Shown piece by piece: positions 52,409 to 63,377 of a stretch of 64,000 nt of DNA. Below the pieces are notes generated by a model. The model did not search any database, was not told the origin of the DNA, and saw only the letters and a list, made by a program, of their open reading frames with translations. The DNA comes from Variovorax sp. PAMC28562. Its GTDB lineage: Bacteria; Pseudomonadota; Gammaproteobacteria; Burkholderiales; Burkholderiaceae_C. The DNA lies in the NCBI RefSeq assembly GCF_014303735.1, contig NZ_CP060296.1, positions 507,501-571,500 of the forward strand, in the 5' to 3' direction. Every line of letters starts with the position of its first letter. Positions within the stretch are counted from its first letter, which is position 1. Made by a program: the position numbers and the translations under genes.

Positions 52409-52621
52409 GGCTTGGAGTCTCCGTCTGAATGTTGCAAGCTTGAGTTGCTTTTGTAGACCCGCAAGTTGAATCGGTCTGTACGGAAGCGAACGTGCGTGCA
52501 GCACGAGGGCACGTGCAATGACAAACGGTTTCGCGGCGCCTATCGACCGGCCTCATACTGTCCGTTCGCTTCGAAACGGCATTCGACACGGCCTGCAACT
52601 GCTGGCTCCTCCCCCTTTCGG

Positions 52622-53338
52622 ATGCGCCAGCAACCGAAAGCCTTCTTGCCCACTTCGTCGAATCAAATGATCGAGCGGCTGCCGCGCGCCGCCCGTTCCA
52701 GGCTCATCGCACTCTGCGAACCGCACCCGCTGGTACTGTCCGAAGTCCTTTGCGAGGCCAAAACGTCCACGCGGCACGTTTACTTTCCGACGGAGGGCTT
52801 TATCTCGCTGGTGTCCGTCATCGATGGGAACCAAGGCATCGAAGTCGGAATGGTCGGACAAGAAGGCATGCTGGGTGCGCATCTGGCGCTCGGCGTGGCG
52901 TCGCAGCCTCTGCACGCGCTGGTACAGGGTACCGGGTCGGCATTGCGGATCAATGCTCGCGCCTTTCGCGTCGAATTAAGCCAAAGCCCGGCGTTGCAAA
53001 GCGCGGTCTTTCGTTATCTCCATGTGCTGATGGCTCAGCTCGCTGTATCGACCGCCTGTGTGCGCTTTCACTCCGTGCAACCAAGATTGGCCCGTTGGCT
53101 CTTGATGAGCCAGGACCGAGCAGCCTCGGACGGTTTTCGTGTCACGCATGAATTTTTGGCCTACATGCTCGGCGTTCGAAGGGTGGGAATCACTTCTGCA
53201 GCGAGTGCATTGCGGCGCGATGGGCTGATCAGCTATCACCGTGGTGACGTGACAGTGCTCGATCGCAAAGGCCTGGAAGCCGCTGCCTGCACTTGCTATG
53301 CGGCGGATTGCCGGTCTTACGCAGCTGTCATGGGGTGA
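52622..53338 (+). CDS. Crp/Fnr family transcription regulator
   Basis: A 238-residue protein. The cyclic-nucleotide-like beta roll has STRHVYFPTEGFISLVSVIDG and VGMVGQEGMLGAHLALG. The C-terminal winged helix has MLGVRRVGITSAASALRRDGLI. The N-terminal Cys cluster of FNR is absent, so it does not bind an iron-sulfur cluster in the usual way; a CTCYAADC cluster lies at the C-terminus. The effector is unknown. Its plus-strand end is next to a strong minus-strand terminator at 53369-53396. Confidence 0.85.
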   Translation: MRQQPKAFLPTSSNQMIERLPRAARSRLIALCEPHPLVLSEVLCEAKTSTRHVYFPTEGFISLVSVIDGNQGIEVGMVGQEGMLGAHLALGVASQPLHALVQGTGSALRINARAFRVELSQSPALQSAVFRYLHVLMAQLAVSTACVRFHSVQPRLARWLLMSQDRAASDGFRVTHEFLAYMLGVRRVGITSAASALRRDGLISYHRGDVTVLDRKGLEAAACTCYAADCRSYAAVMG

Positions 53339-53361
53339 GGCGACGCGCCACTGCGGCGCGC

Positions 53362-53396
53362 ATAAAAAAACGGATTGCGCTGACGCGCAATCCGTT
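53362..53396 (-). terminator. Intrinsic terminator, probably of an ancestral tRNA-Phe
   Basis: A perfect 12-bp stem (53369-53380 with 53385-53396, loop TGAC) is followed on the minus strand by a run of seven T. It therefore terminates minus-strand transcripts. It lies 10 bases downstream of the CCA end of the 13-bp tRNA tail at 53407-53419, the spacing expected for a tRNA terminator. No minus-strand gene now reads into it except that remnant. Confidence 0.75.
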
Positions 53397-53406
53397 GATT
53401 TCAATT

Positions 53407-53419
53407 TGGTGGCCTGGGG
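53407..53419. repeat. 13-bp direct repeat, left copy (tRNA-Phe 3' end)
   Basis: TGGTGGCCTGGGG is the plus-strand form of the last 13 bases of tRNA-Phe including CCA. The same 13 bases occur at 55853-55865, at the start of the longer tRNA fragment. Beyond the 13 bases the left copy diverges. The two copies flank the AbiE operon. Confidence 0.7.
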
Positions 53420-53687
53420 GCCGGTTCGAAAGTTCTTGCGCAACCCGTGCGCGTAGACCTTGACCGCGAGAGCGGTGTGCAAGGATGAGGGGAACTGCAA
53501 GCAAGCCCTCACGCCACAGGGCGCACCCGCGTTTTACTGGCAAGCGCAGCGCGCAGCGGCACCGCTGCGAAGGCATCTGCAATGGGGGCCGAAGGGGCGA
53601 GACGCCGCAGGTGGCTCGATGCGCAGCACGCACAGCGCGAAAGCCGTCCGCTTGGGCCGTGTGCAGCGTTCCGAAAACGATCGAGAC

Positions 53688-53810
53688 GTCCGAAATAAAT
53701 TACAAGTTTCGGACATATTAAATGGATAACGTATTCAAAAGTCCGAAGACAACCACATCTTTCGGACAAAATATTGCTTTACGTCCAAAAAACAGTTACA
53801 AATATCGGAC
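53688..53810 (+). promoter_or_regulatory. Three inverted repeats, candidate AbiEi operators
   Basis: Three repeats built on GTCCGAAA/TTTCGGAC lie just ahead of abiEi. First: GTCCGAAA (53688-53695) with TTTCGGAC (53707-53714), perfect over 8 bp. Second: GTCCGAA (53741-53747) with TTCGGAC (53761-53767). Third: GTCCAAAA (53783-53790) with a degenerate TATCGGAC (53803-53810). A further half-site GTCCGAC overlaps the start codon (53817-53823). Centres are about 53 and 43 bases apart. AbiEi proteins are known to repress their operon by binding inverted repeats. Confidence 0.65.
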
Positions 53811-53814
53811 AAGT

Positions 53815-54534
53815 ATGTCCGACCTTAAATCCGCTGTCCTATCCCTCGTCAAAGCTGACGGGGCCAGCCGTGTCTGGGTGCCGACGGACTTTGCCGCCTT
53901 CGGCAGCCGCGATGCGATCGACAAAACACTGCAACGCCTGGTCCACGACGGTGAGCTGAGACGCATCGACAGAGGGTTGTACGACAGGCCGACCCTCAAC
54001 AGCCTCACAAAACGCCCCACCAGTCCGGACTACCGCGCCATCGTGGACGCCATCGCTCGTCGGGATCAACTTCGCCTGCTGGTCGACGGCCTGACTGCGG
54101 CGAACGACCTTGGCCTGACCGACGCGGTGCCCGCCCGCGTCACGATCCACACCGACGCCAGACGGCGATCCGTGAAGCTGGACAACCTGGTCATCGAGTT
54201 CAAGCAGACGGCCCCCAGCCGTCTGTATTGGGCCGGCCGGCCAGCCATGCGTGTTGTGCAGGCCCTGCGCTGGCTGAAAGACACCTTGGCCACCGACCGG
54301 CAGCGGATCTTGGGCAAGTTGGGCAAGCTGCTGGCTGATCCGGTCCACGGCGACGCCATACGCAAAGACCTTCTGGAAGGCTTCAGCACGTTGCCGACCT
54401 GGATGCAAAGCCTCGTACGCGAACTGCCGGGATGCGATCCCAAGATCACGGCCGCCGCGCTACTCAAACGAGCCAAATCCAGCACAAGTGCGAAGCGCCC
54501 CTGTCCGAAGAGCGCGATCGGGGAGGCTGCATGA
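53815..54534 (+). CDS. abiEi: AbiEi-type antitoxin, winged-helix regulator
   Basis: A 239-residue protein. The first 60 residues form the winged-helix domain (GSRDAIDKTLQRLVHDGELRRIDRGLYDRP). The rest matches the AbiEi C-domain, which blocks the AbiEii toxin by a type IV-like mechanism. The frame is open from 53722, but the ATG at 53815 gives the family start and leaves the operators free of coding. The 4-base overlap with the toxin gene is typical of this system. It probably represses its own promoter. Confidence 0.85.
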   Translation: MSDLKSAVLSLVKADGASRVWVPTDFAAFGSRDAIDKTLQRLVHDGELRRIDRGLYDRPTLNSLTKRPTSPDYRAIVDAIARRDQLRLLVDGLTAANDLGLTDAVPARVTIHTDARRRSVKLDNLVIEFKQTAPSRLYWAGRPAMRVVQALRWLKDTLATDRQRILGKLGKLLADPVHGDAIRKDLLEGFSTLPTWMQSLVRELPGCDPKITAAALLKRAKSSTSAKRPCPKSAIGEAA

Positions 54535-55604
54535 ACGCCGACTTCCAGACCGTGATCGCGGCTGCAGATGCCGAGCGACGAGATCTTTTCCTCGGTGCTG
54601 CGGCGCGCCTCGGCTCCGCCGTCCAGAACGTCGAGAAAGACTTCTGGGTCTGCTGGGCTTTGGACGCGCTGTTCAACGGCCTTCCGGCTGGTGGCCCGCG
54701 GCTGCTCTTCAAGGGGGGCACATCCCTCTCGAAGGCCTTCGGACTCATCTCCCGTTTCTCCGAAGACATCGACATCACGGTCTTCCGCGATGACCTGGGT
54801 CAGGGCGTCGAAGCGGCAGACCTGGACGCGCTCAGCGGCAAGAAGCGCCGCGCCCGGCTTGACGCCATCCGCGATGCCTGCAAAAGCTACATAGCCGGGC
54901 CGCTGACCACCCAGTTCACCGAAGCCGCAGCCGCTGCGATTCCCGAAGAGCGATTCCTGCTGGAAGCCGATCCGGAAGATAAGGACGGTCAAACCCTTCT
55001 GTTCTGGTATCCCCAAGTCACGGCGGCCGAAGGCGACTACATTCGCGCCGCCGTCAAGATCGAGGCTGGCGCGAAATCCGCCCTGGACCCGCACATCGCC
55101 GCGACTGTGACGCCGTACGTTGCGGCCGACTTGCCCGATCTGAATCTCGTCGTCTCCGGCGTGACGACAGTCCAACCGGAACGAACGTTCTGGGACAAGG
55201 TGATCATCCTGCACGGTCTGCGCCAGTGGTACGACCGTCGTCAGGAACTGCGCCACGAAGGGCAGCGGGTATCACGTCACTATTACGACATCCATCGCCT
55301 TTTGCAGGCGGAAGGCGCACCAGCCTGGCAAGCCAATCTCGATCTTGCCGCAGACTGCGCAACACATGCCAGGTTGTTCTTCGGGAGCCCTGACCTGGGG
55401 CTGGACTCAGCAGCCGCAGGCACATTCACGCTGACCCCCGACGCTGCGATGCACGACGCGCTCGGGCGAGACTACGCGGCCATGTCCGGAATGATCTTCG
55501 GCGACATCCCGCCTCTGGATACGGTACTGGCAAGTGTTGCGTCGCTTCAAGAAGCGATTAACGCCGCGGCCAAGTCACCCTTGGGCAGAGGGACGTCAGC
55601 ATGA
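54531..55604 (+). CDS. abiEii: AbiEii-type nucleotidyltransferase toxin
   Basis: A 357-residue protein of the AbiEii/AbiGii family. The motifs are NVEKDFWVCWALD, FKGGTSLSKAFGLISRFSEDID (GGTSLSK at 62-68 and the SEDID acid pair at 77-81), and TVQPERTFWDKVIILHGLRQW. These are the nucleotidyltransferase core that binds GTP or other NTPs and inhibits growth; related toxins modify tRNA or other targets. The start has GGAGG upstream. The system is known for phage abortive infection. It looks intact. Confidence 0.9.
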   Translation: MNADFQTVIAAADAERRDLFLGAAARLGSAVQNVEKDFWVCWALDALFNGLPAGGPRLLFKGGTSLSKAFGLISRFSEDIDITVFRDDLGQGVEAADLDALSGKKRRARLDAIRDACKSYIAGPLTTQFTEAAAAAIPEERFLLEADPEDKDGQTLLFWYPQVTAAEGDYIRAAVKIEAGAKSALDPHIAATVTPYVAADLPDLNLVVSGVTTVQPERTFWDKVIILHGLRQWYDRRQELRHEGQRVSRHYYDIHRLLQAEGAPAWQANLDLAADCATHARLFFGSPDLGLDSAAAGTFTLTPDAAMHDALGRDYAAMSGMIFGDIPPLDTVLASVASLQEAINAAAKSPLGRGTSA

Positions 55605-55663
55605 TCGACTATTTCAGCAACCGCAAAAACGGGCCTGTCGTTTCGCCCGTACTCAGGACGTGA
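55601..55663 (+). CDS. Tiny ORF coupled to abiEii
   Basis: ATG at 55601 overlaps the abiEii stop (TGA 55602-55604), giving MIDYFSNRKNGPVVSPVLRT and a stop. The coupling suggests translation, but 20 residues with no recognised family may be a truncated third gene or chance. Confidence is low. Confidence 0.2.
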   Translation: MIDYFSNRKNGPVVSPVLRT

Positions 55664-56058
55664 TTACTCCGACGGAGGCTTATGGTGTACCCAAAAAGAC
55701 TGCGCGTGAAAAGCAACCTGAGTACACCGTTAGGTACACGCAAGAACGGGACGTTGTGGGATTCAGAGATACCGCTTGAGCCGCCCTTTCGGGCTAAGTC
55801 CTTGATTCACAAGGACTTCTGAGCTGACTTGGGATCTACTGAGAAAGAAAGATGGTGGCCTGGGGCGGAATCGAACCACCGACACGCGGATTTTCAATCC
55901 TCAAATAACACTGTTGATCACTGTTCAGTGCTGTTGATAGAATCAATATAAATCAACATCTTACAGAGACTGTGCTGGTCAAAACACCAGTAATGCATGG
56001 ATTGATGTTGATCTAAATATTGGTGAAGTGGCTACATGGTGGCTACACCAGGATCAAC
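55605..56058. other. Region between abiEii and the integrase
   Basis: The stretch holds a 20-codon ORF coupled to abiEii (55601-55663), the tRNA-Phe fragment (55853-55900), and short repeats ahead of the integrase (55911-56060). No other gene is supported. A short GCCC-TTTC-GGGC hairpin lies near 55783-55794. Confidence 0.5.
55853..55900 (-). repeat. tRNA-Phe 3' fragment (attachment site)
   Basis: On the minus strand the sequence carries the anticodon loop TTGAAAA, the T-arm and GGCCACCA, that is, the 3' part of a tRNA-Phe (anticodon GAA). The identity block is 48 bases and begins at the anticodon stem; the 5' half is absent. This is the pattern left where an element integrated in a tRNA gene: the 3' fragment stays at one end and the rebuilt gene lies at the other, here beyond the right edge of the window. 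The first 13 bases repeat at 53407-53419. Confidence 0.8.
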
Positions 56059-56060
56059 AT
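55911..56060. promoter_or_regulatory. Integrase arm or operator-like repeats
   Basis: Three decamers start with CTGTT at 55911, 55921 and 55931, two of them CTGTTGAT. ATCAACAT appears at 55952-55959 and 56053-56060, and ATGTTGAT at 56005-56012. The last ATCAACAT overlaps the integrase start. GTGGCTACA is repeated at 56028-56036 and 56039-56047. They could be integrase arm-type sites or an autoregulatory operator. Confidence 0.5.
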
Positions 56061-57387
56061 GGCCCGCCCCCGCAAAGACCAGCCCCTCGACCTCACCCAA
56101 GCCATGGAGCTGACTGCTGGAGCCATAGAGCGCCTTGTCTGCCCGCCCGGCAAGGACCAGGTTTTCCTGCGGGATAGCAAGTCGCCGGGTCTGCGAGTGC
56201 GCGCCACGGCCAGCGGCGCCAAGTCGTTCGTCTTCGAAGCCAAGCTCGACCGCAAGACGATCCGCCGCACCATCGGCGATGTGAAGGCGTGGCCCATCGA
56301 AGAGGCGCGCGTCGAGGCGAACCGACTTCGCGTCACGCTGGACAAAGGGCACGACCCGCGCGAACTGGATCGCGAGCTTGAAGCGGTGAAGGCTGCAAAG
56401 GTCGCTGAAGGCGTCGCCAACGCCCTGACGGTGCAAGAAGCGTGGGACAGGTACACCAAGGAGCGGAAACCTCACTGGGGCGACCGGAACTACGCCGACC
56501 ACGAGAAGATGACGCAAGAGGGTGGCAAAGCGCACAAGCGCCACGCCGATGTCAAAACAATTGCCGGCCCTATGGCGTCTCTCATGTCCATGCGCCTTGT
56601 CGACCTCGACGCCGCGGCCATCGAATCATGGGCGGCACACGAAGCCAAGACCCGCCCTGCCCGCGTGCGCCTCGCTCTCCGGCTGCTGAAGGCTTTCCTT
56701 CGCTGGGCCGGTGGCGAAGCCGATATGAAGGGCAAGGCAGATCCAACCGCGGCCAGCGCCAAGAAAACGCGGGAGATCGCTGGGAAGCCGCAGGCCAAGA
56801 ACGACTATCTGCAGCGGGAACAACTGGAGGCGTGGTTTTCCAAGGTGAAGCAGATCCCCAACCTCACCATCTCCGTGTACCTGCAGGTGCTGCTGCTGAC
56901 CGGCGCTCGGCGGGAAGAGTTGGCCGCGCTGCGTTGGGCCGACGTGAACTTCCAATGGAAAGGCATGAACATGAAAGACAAGATCGAAGGTCAGCGGCCT
57001 GTTCCGTTGACGCCCTACGTGTCGTCGCTGCTTCGCTCCCTGCCACGACGCAACGAGTGGGTGTTCTCCAGTCAGACCAGTAAGTCGGGGCGCCTTGCAG
57101 AGCCGAGCATTGCGCATCGCAAGGCATGCACAGCCGCAGGGCTCAAATTGACGCTGCATGGCTTGCGCCGGTCTTTCGCCAGCCTGTGCGAGTGGCTGGA
57201 CATCCCTGGCGGCATCAGCGCCCAGATCCAAGGACACGCACCGCAAGGCGTGCGCGAGCAGAACTACATCCGGAGGCCACTGGATCTCCTGCGGGTGCAC
57301 CACGAGAAGATCGAGGCGTGGATGCTGGAACAGGCAAAGATCACGTTCGACCCGTCGGCCGATGCCCAGCTCAAGGCCGTCGCCTGA
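56059..57387 (+). CDS. Tyrosine recombinase/integrase of the element
   Basis: A 442-residue phage-type integrase. Residues 1-110 are the arm-binding N-domain of the DUF4102-like kind (LRVRATASGAKSFVFEAKLD), then a core-binding domain, and the catalytic domain from about 250. Catalytic residues are Arg284 in LLLTGARREELAAL, His367 and Arg370 in LTLHGLRRSF, His393 in GHAPQGVREQ, and nucleophile Tyr403 in NYIRRPLDLL. All are present, so it should be active. It starts 159 bases after the tRNA fragment, as expected for a tRNA-targeted element. The ATG was chosen because an AGGA precedes it; a TTG at 56020 is in frame. Confidence 0.92.
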   Translation: MARPRKDQPLDLTQAMELTAGAIERLVCPPGKDQVFLRDSKSPGLRVRATASGAKSFVFEAKLDRKTIRRTIGDVKAWPIEEARVEANRLRVTLDKGHDPRELDRELEAVKAAKVAEGVANALTVQEAWDRYTKERKPHWGDRNYADHEKMTQEGGKAHKRHADVKTIAGPMASLMSMRLVDLDAAAIESWAAHEAKTRPARVRLALRLLKAFLRWAGGEADMKGKADPTAASAKKTREIAGKPQAKNDYLQREQLEAWFSKVKQIPNLTISVYLQVLLLTGARREELAALRWADVNFQWKGMNMKDKIEGQRPVPLTPYVSSLLRSLPRRNEWVFSSQTSKSGRLAEPSIAHRKACTAAGLKLTLHGLRRSFASLCEWLDIPGGISAQIQGHAPQGVREQNYIRRPLDLLRVHHEKIEAWMLEQAKITFDPSADAQLKAVA

Positions 57388-57552: not shown

Positions 57553-58143
57553 TTGCCTCAATTCCTGATTTCCTTCCGCTCACGCAGGCTCCTGCTTGCG
57601 CTCGCGTTGTCTTTGCAGATCGGCTGCAGCGTGCAGCCATCTTCGACAGATGCGCCCGCAGCCGTGTCCTTGCAGCCGGGCACCCGCATCGATGTCGCTT
57701 TCTCACCGGAAGCGGGTGCAGAGGCCCTGGTGCTCAAGGTCATGGACAGCGCCCAGCGATCGTTGCGCCTTGCCGGCTATTCCTTCACATCTCCCGCCGT
57801 CGTCCGTGCACTCGTGAACGCGCGCAAGCGCGGCGTGGACGTCAAAGTCCTACTGGATGACCGGGGCAACCGCGGTAAGGCCAGCATCGCCGCAATGAAC
57901 TTGATCGCAGGCGCCGATATACCGATCAGGGTGATCTCGAGCTATGCCATCCACCATGACAAATACATCGTGGTCGATGGCCGGCACACGGAGACGGGTT
58001 CCTTTAACTACAGCCAGGCGGCCGCACGGTCCAACTCCGAGAACGTGCTCGTGGTCTGGAACGATGAACGCGTCGCGTCGAGTTATCTCGCGCATTGGGA
58101 CAGCCGCTGGGCTCAAGGGGTTGCGGTGGAAGTGAGCTTCTGA
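57553..58143 (+). CDS. Single-HKD phospholipase D-family lipoprotein (Nuc-like)
   Basis: A 196-residue protein starting at TTG, with a hydrophobic signal and lipobox LQIGC. It has one HKD motif, HHDKYIVVD (His135, Lys137, Asp142), followed by GSFNYSQAA. One motif per chain means it should act as a dimer, as for plasmid-encoded endonuclease Nuc and relatives. The substrate may be DNA or phospholipid. The lipoprotein signal places it in the envelope. It is 2 bases from the DUF6794 gene, so both may share a transcript. Confidence 0.82.
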   Translation: MPQFLISFRSRRLLLALALSLQIGCSVQPSSTDAPAAVSLQPGTRIDVAFSPEAGAEALVLKVMDSAQRSLRLAGYSFTSPAVVRALVNARKRGVDVKVLLDDRGNRGKASIAAMNLIAGADIPIRVISSYAIHHDKYIVVDGRHTETGSFNYSQAAARSNSENVLVVWNDERVASSYLAHWDSRWAQGVAVEVSF

Positions 58144-58145
58144 GC

Positions 58146-58430
58146 ATGGACGGCTCAGACGGCTTTCCGGAAACAGTCGACGCAGCTGTTCGGCTGCTGA
58201 TCGCGATGGTGCCGAAAGCAGAACAGGCACGAATCGCAGCCATGGCGCGGGACGAACTGGTGGTGTTGCACTTCGGTTTGGGCCTGTGGATCCGAAACAA
58301 CCTCGGGCTGTGGCAAGGCAACCGGGCGTTGCTCGAAGCTTGTGGTGTCCAAAGCCCAGACGATGCTTCGACCTTCCTCATCGAGGCGTTCTGGCGGGAG
58401 CTGCGTGCCCTGGAGCCAAAGCTTCACTGA
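58146..58430 (+). CDS. DUF6794-like small protein
   Basis: A 94-residue soluble protein with FPETVDAAVRLLIAMVPKAE, HFGLGLWIRNNLGLWQGNRA and DDASTFLIEAFWREL. This matches the DUF6794 pattern: a small helical domain of unknown function, often found beside defence or signalling genes in mobile elements. It immediately follows the PLD-type lipoprotein gene. Confidence 0.75.
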   Translation: MDGSDGFPETVDAAVRLLIAMVPKAEQARIAAMARDELVVLHFGLGLWIRNNLGLWQGNRALLEACGVQSPDDASTFLIEAFWRELRALEPKLH

Positions 58431-63273: not shown

Positions 63274-63377
63274 TCGCTCCACTACTCTCAGTTCTGCCAG
63301 CCATAGGCTGATCCCCGAAAACCTGCTTCCCTGGCGGGCTTGGCTGGCATCTTTCTTAAGGGGCGCAAGGGGCGCAT

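Follow-up and report, generated by a model that had tools for sequence, protein, structure and literature searches.

In the 4.69-Mb single-contig genome of Variovorax sp. PAMC28562 (G000), an AbiE operon is enclosed by two copies of the end of a tRNA-Phe gene, one of which stands beside a transcription terminator. How did the operon come to lie there, and what parted the tRNA gene from its terminator? The window analysed here is a stretch of 64,000 nucleotides (G000:C1:507501-571500); positions without prefix are counted from its first letter, those with the prefix C1 along the contig. The features discussed are collected in Table 1.

Table 1. Coordinates of the AbiE relic, its host flank and the adjoining end of the outer element.
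Feature	Position	Strand	Basis or remark
Host gene, Crp-like regulator	52466..53338	+	Pfam HTH_Crp_2; in G068 the orthologue stands by the terminator and an intact tRNA-Phe
Original tRNA-Phe terminator (stem of 12 pairs, T run)	53364..53396	-	Same place and spacing as in G068
Distal 13-bp copy of tRNA-Phe 3' end, outer core of AbiE island	53407..53419	-	Exact match, tRNA comparison
Non-coding stretch like genus-dispersed repeat	53420..53640	+	Homology starts almost at core; neighbours of other copies
Three operator-like palindromic units	53688-53720, 53741-53773, 53784-53816	+	Upstream of abiEi
abiEi, DUF6088 antitoxin-like, 239 aa	53815..54534	+	Pfam DUF6088, PADLOC AbiEi 3.2e-99
abiEii, nucleotidyltransferase toxin-like, 357 aa	54531..55604	+	Pfam AbiEii, PADLOC AbiEii 2e-97
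Stump of third operon gene, abiJ-like	55601..55671	+	79% identity to L063, 77% to L064
Integrase attachment/promoter region, ends at missing integrase start codon	55682..55852	-	Homology to intact islands
48-bp copy of tRNA-Phe 3' half, shared by AbiE island (inner core) and outer element (distal att)	55853..55900	-	
Integrase of outer element	56020..57387	+	Element of ~28 kb, runs to C1:591422, beyond window

Exact copies of the 13-mer of the tRNA-Phe end, TGGTGGCCTGGGG, stand at 53407-53419 and 55853-55865, with no third copy in the window; 100 dinucleotide-preserving shuffles of the window averaged 0.01 exact matches, without a single shuffle reaching two. The 13-bp tRNA-Phe end noted originally is thereby exact and beyond chance, and the minus-strand terminator 10 bp from it is real. 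In the whole genome the 13-mer is found three times, always on one strand, the third occurrence lying where an intact tRNA-Phe(GAA) ends, at G000:C1:591423. Identity to this tRNA extends over 48 bp at the 55853 copy and over 13 bp at the 53407 copy. By our reading of tRNA anatomy, the 13 bp represent the 11-nt acceptor end and two bases of the T-stem, which corresponds to the T/acceptor-junction subsite of Islander (PMC4383910).

The terminator consists of a 12-pair stem (53369-53396) and a T run, seen as A7 at 53364-53370 of the plus strand. Folded with its flanks it reaches z = -4.64, and a spacer of ten bases (53397-53406) separates it from the 13-mer. The sole Rfam match at E<=1 within 53340-55920 is weak and lies over this terminator (23.4 bits, cut-off 114). 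The 55853 copy had been described as having no terminator next to it: a T run is indeed absent, and a 9-bp hairpin (AAGTCCTTG/CAAGGACTT) can be seen by eye about 30 bp away.

An empty site is present in another genome of the genus, G068. There, the terminator comes after an orthologue of the Crp-like regulator (85% amino acid identity), and 10 bp beyond the terminator lies an intact tRNA-Phe; both host flanks meet at this point, and neither the AbiE segment nor the outer element is present. The flank upstream of tRNA-Phe is 88.8% identical to that of G000 over 1640 bp. The G068 assembly is 58% complete, with the empty site spanned by one contig, and this is the one clean empty site in which the crp/terminator flank was found, the other genome with this flank, G055, being occupied. 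It had been stated beforehand that in an empty site tRNA-Phe should directly adjoin the terminator and the segment 53420-55852 should be missing, and G068 shows just this arrangement. Together with the integrase-island end described below, the empty site supports the view that the AbiE segment split the tRNA gene from its terminator.

The opposite end of the segment reveals what kind of element it was. Next to 55853, the sequence shares 98% identity with an end adjoining intact tRNA-Phe in G055 and, with the tRNA excluded, 85% with G044 and 83% with G050. In G050 and G044, the homologous end leads directly into an intact tyrosine integrase (Arm-DNA-bind_3, Phage_int_M, Phage_integrase). In the window and in G055, homology breaks off where the integrase would begin, at its start codon, and the next sequence is what remains of an abiJ-like third gene, whose complete version in L064 (Rhodoferax MAG) codes for an AbiJ_NTD4 protein of 303 aa. 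Judged by this homology, the 171 bp beside the second tRNA copy are the attachment/promoter end of a tyrosine-integrase island. Because the integrase-end homology stops at the start codon and meets the abiJ-like stump, 53407-55852 is the integrase-less relic of a tRNA-Phe island and not a complete island. The earlier proposal of an AbiE island in the same tRNA gene thus holds for its origin and has to be corrected for its state. Both attachment ends are kept, as the 13-bp copy at 53407 and the 48-bp copy at 55853. A complete parent with integrase, AbiE and abiJ was absent among the genomes examined. A plasmid search gave 407 matching records, none of which reached 80% query coverage, and a phage search gave five, each matching in the tRNA end alone.

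The AbiE pair itself seems well preserved. AbiEi and AbiEii both read as intact, and their genes overlap by 4 nt (54531-54534) in an apparent bicistronic operon. The abiEi start was placed by eye and agrees with L063 and L064, the Pfam and PADLOC scans having taken a longer frame from 53722; AbiEii was scanned from 54432, its 357 aa being counted from 54531. Motifs I-II of AbiEii, hG[G/S]x15DhD as given in PMC3985639, are present by eye with the arginine (KGGTSLSKAFGLISRFSEDIDI); for motif IV, +DxxD, the nearest candidate by eye is RHYYD, in which the first aspartate is replaced. The type IV toxin-antitoxin AbiE, as portrayed in PMC3985639 and PMC7319586, shares with the window two genes with a 4-nt overlap, AbiEi combined with the nucleotidyltransferase AbiEii, and upstream inverted repeats, the latter serving AbiEi autoregulation according to PMC7319586. 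It differs in three respects: AbiEi here belongs to the DUF6088 kind, the operator-like units number three, against the one or two 23-bp repeat pairs of those accounts, and the ancestor of the window operon had an abiJ-like third gene downstream. The pair appears to fit an autoregulated type IV toxin-antitoxin and presumably works as a defence system of this type. Of the open reading frames of at least 90 aa in the 2.4-kb segment, abiEi and abiEii alone were scanned, and no function is assigned to the others outside the overlap of the abiE frames.

AbiEii relatives (E<=1e-30) are found in 17 of 101 genus genomes, G000 included. Among the other 16, the gene lies on contigs without tRNA-Phe in 14 and more than 1 Mb away on the tRNA contig in two. 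None of the 16 thus has AbiE near tRNA-Phe, which, most genus genomes being drafts, means absence there in the assembly. Conserved chromosomal AbiE genes had been named as the finding that would speak against an island; with 17 of 101 genomes and the copies of the others elsewhere, AbiE is not conserved chromosome.

The AbiE-side integrase family has members in 14 of the 101 genomes at E<=1e-100, with none in G000 at this threshold. Our census comprised 99 tRNA-Phe ends, one from each of 98 genomes and, from G021 (6% contamination), a further copy; of the 101 genomes, G022 (a match without tRNA) as well as G012 and G088 (no match) were excluded. An integrase start lies 172-176 bp downstream of the tRNA at 10 of the 99 ends (71.8-100% identity). 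Three more ends carry integrase relatives of 39-42% identity at 205-253 bp, and one (G040) a frameshifted stump. Terminator counts depend on our own hairpin rule: by it, terminators lie within 20 bp at 50 of the 99 ends and at 21-100 bp at 25 more, and none lies within 100 bp at 9 of the 10 integrase-bearing ends. At these nine (e.g. L145, L146), the stretch from the tRNA to the integrase gene on the same strand showed no terminator, so that the tRNA promoter might drive the integrase of this family.

Distal ends were located for four of the ten tRNA-adjacent integrases. Their cores measure 14 bp in G067 (104 kb from the tRNA), 20 bp in G094 (69 kb), 14 bp in G023 (87 kb) and 23 bp in G015 (on another contig), each with a hairpin nearby by eye; for G092 the internal junction, a 16-bp core between two stacked family members, was located. 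The 13-bp core of the window fits this class of 14-23 bp, though it is shorter. The distal terminator of G067 is 89-91% identical to terminators beside tRNA-Phe in G032 and G063. The distal host sides of G094 and G015 had no match among the tRNA-Phe loci compared, and no distal ends of G050, G044, G074, G038 and G052 were seen on the tRNA contig among the 12-mer hits read. PADLOC matched defence families in three of four sampled members (G044, G067 and G074, not G094); the sample was ten chosen proteins, seven of them matched, and the G044 and G074 stretches were tested without defined island borders. Stacks at tRNA-Phe also occur elsewhere: G092:C3:320410-410520 holds two family integrases 90 kb apart, and G099:C7:18396-28872 has an integrase that follows a 35-bp tRNA copy at a distance of 10 kb from the tRNA.

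To the left of abiEi in the relic lie about 190 bp of non-coding DNA that have copies of 70-78% identity in many genus genomes (including L278-L291), and copies are also found upstream of AbiE in L068 and L069. No Rfam family fits this repeat. Because the repeat starts almost at the distal edge of the core, a deletion may have shortened the core to 13 bp. Other copies of the repeat have, as two of their neighbours, RPA and DUF2958 genes. As the left flank resembles repeats near such genes, PAGI-2/ICEclc-type ICEs were considered as parent islands; this candidate found no support, with the relaxase model TIGR03760 matching in one of 16 genomes (G015).

Beyond the second tRNA copy begins the outer element. 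The 48-bp 3' half of tRNA-Phe (55853-55900) is repeated at C1:591423, within the intact minus-strand tRNA-Phe(GAA) called by ARAGORN. The approximately 28 kb between the 48-bp copies start with the integrase and continue with matches to phage primase, helicase and lytic tail families. The element is thus prophage-like, and it left the 48-bp tRNA copy, a core that by our reading of tRNA anatomy reaches the anticodon. Its integrase is weakly similar to the AbiE-side family. At the tRNA-side end, a hairpin and a T run start 24 bp after the tRNA, so the tRNA has a terminator again. Within the element, an int-alpA RNA (RF02996) scores above the gathering cut-off at 63296-63362, and 57553-58430, next to the integrase, encodes a PLD-domain protein matching DrmC models and a DUF6794 protein.

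We consider it likely that 53407-55852 is the remnant of a decayed, integrase-less tRNA-Phe island that was later displaced by the prophage-like element. The integrase of the parent, presumably a larger island, would have recombined near the junction of T-stem and acceptor stem of tRNA-Phe. Because of this crossover position, a short tRNA copy would have stayed beside the host terminator, and the tRNA would have been rebuilt with downstream sequence of the island. The parent would have carried an abiEi-abiEii-abiJ cargo facing the integrase gene. One deletion or perhaps several would then have removed abiJ except for the stump, together with the integrase as far as the start codon; nearly all island sequence on the other side of abiE is likewise absent, which would leave the 2.4-kb AbiE relic. 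Finally, the ~28-kb prophage-like element would have entered the same tRNA through the anticodon loop, moving the relic 28 kb away from the intact gene and supplying the new terminator.

The AbiE island had originally been called the older of the two, with the integrase element second. This order is probable, though the sequence does not fix it. In the reverse order, the prophage-like element would have come first to the empty tRNA-Phe, and AbiE later into the distal tRNA copy of the prophage. The final map would be identical, the 48 bp of tRNA at 55853 can hold the short core of the AbiE-side family, and integration into a flanking att of a resident element is among the events described in PMC7563491. 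We nevertheless regard this order as unlikely, as the integrase of the family stands at intact tRNA in 10 of the 99 tRNA-Phe ends and the AbiE-type end adjoins an intact tRNA in G055. The prophage integrase moreover looks complete and that of the AbiE relic is lost, which suits an older AbiE insertion. It is highly improbable that AbiE is cargo of the outer element, in other words that a single element reaches from 53407 to the intact tRNA. The two segments do adjoin, each with tRNA-Phe ends as borders; yet the outer element has its own complete 48-bp pair (55853 and C1:591423) with the integrase just inside, AbiE lies outside this pair, and the AbiE end comes from a different integrase family, so we reject this explanation. 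The idea that the 13-mer, short on its own at 13 bp, is a chance match, or that AbiE is ordinary conserved chromosome, is hardly credible given 0.01 matches expected in the window, the position of the 13-mer at the exact spacing of the empty site, which G068 provides, and the AbiE locations in the other 16 genomes with an AbiEii relative (none found near tRNA-Phe). The G068 empty site contradicts this idea, and conserved chromosome is rejected.

G055 allows a comparison of the integrase-less end. AbiEii was not found in its assembly, where the contig stops 230 bp from the tRNA; the absence of AbiE rests on the AbiEii search, the comparison of the segment with the genus having scored two candidates per genome. 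At the integrase-less junction, G000 and G055 are identical in 225 of 230 bases. Host flank identity is lower: towards the tRNA 92.5% over 2079 bp, towards crp 80.7% over 913 bp and 90.7% over 3939 bp; junction identity is above it with p = 0.0014 against the 92.5% flank and p = 2.7e-13 against the 80.7% flank. This similarity, from a short sample of attachment DNA that may be constrained, suggests horizontal exchange after loss of the integrase. The G055 junction beside the terminator retains 46 bp of tRNA, and its stack was therefore built differently from that of G000. A bolder reading, which we hold to be rather doubtful, is that the AbiE unit of 2.4 kb represents a miniature defence element lacking an integrase, which is still able to enter tRNA-Phe with integrases of full islands supplied in trans and which crossed Variovorax species after the integrase was lost. 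The apparent exchange of the integrase-less end between G000 and G055 makes such borrowed-integrase movement testable.

Does the locus belong to a known kind of element? CIMEs are characterized in PMC7563491 and PMC5704250, in the classical form of the class, as decayed elements of 1.2-13 kb that keep att ends and cargo and have lost integration and transfer genes; PMC5704250 outlines a history of integration, decay and second integration. The AbiE relic likewise keeps both attachment ends, has lost its integration gene and seems, from its gene content, to have lost conjugation/mobilization genes; it has cargo and lies distal to a second element. Two differences exist. Its partner is prophage-like instead of an ICE or IME, and the parent island is only putatively conjugative or mobilizable: its relatives are tRNA-Phe islands, and TIGR03760, an ICE relaxase and the transfer marker used, was matched in one of 16 genomes searched. 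As the locus matches the three steps of integration, decay and second integration, it is a CIME-like relic in a tandem tRNA array, and therefore of a known kind. We found no paper that combines Variovorax, tRNA-Phe and genomic island.

Islander, as presented in PMC4383910, takes tRNA fragments as marks of island ends and recognises crossover subsites in the anticodon loop and at the T/acceptor junction. Here, too, tRNA fragments bound each element, and the 13- and 48-bp tRNA copies of the two insertions stacked in one tRNA gene point to two crossover subsites. The rule for array members worded in PMC4383910, own integrase and own fragment, would leave the AbiE relic uncounted because it is an inner element without integrase. 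The defence operon has outlived the island that carried AbiE in. Since island finders that depend on an integrase would overlook relics of this sort, a short tRNA core adjoining a displaced terminator offers a usable search rule.

Two further AbiE loci were noted in MAGs. A second AbiE relic with other breakpoints lies at 7285-9600 of L063 (Burkholderiales MAG), its AbiEii being 89% identical to that of the window. A stump of about 65 residues (by eye) from an integrase of the AbiE-side family faces an abiJ stump there, the same gene pairing as in the window. The tRNA-Phe end that this relic adjoins is degenerate, an intact tRNA being absent, and an apparent gyrB is nearby (by eye). In L064:6254-15389, AbiE, the complete abiJ-like gene, DUF4007 and a PAPS-reductase-like gene stand together with a tRNA-Arg upstream; this is the same AbiE module at another site.
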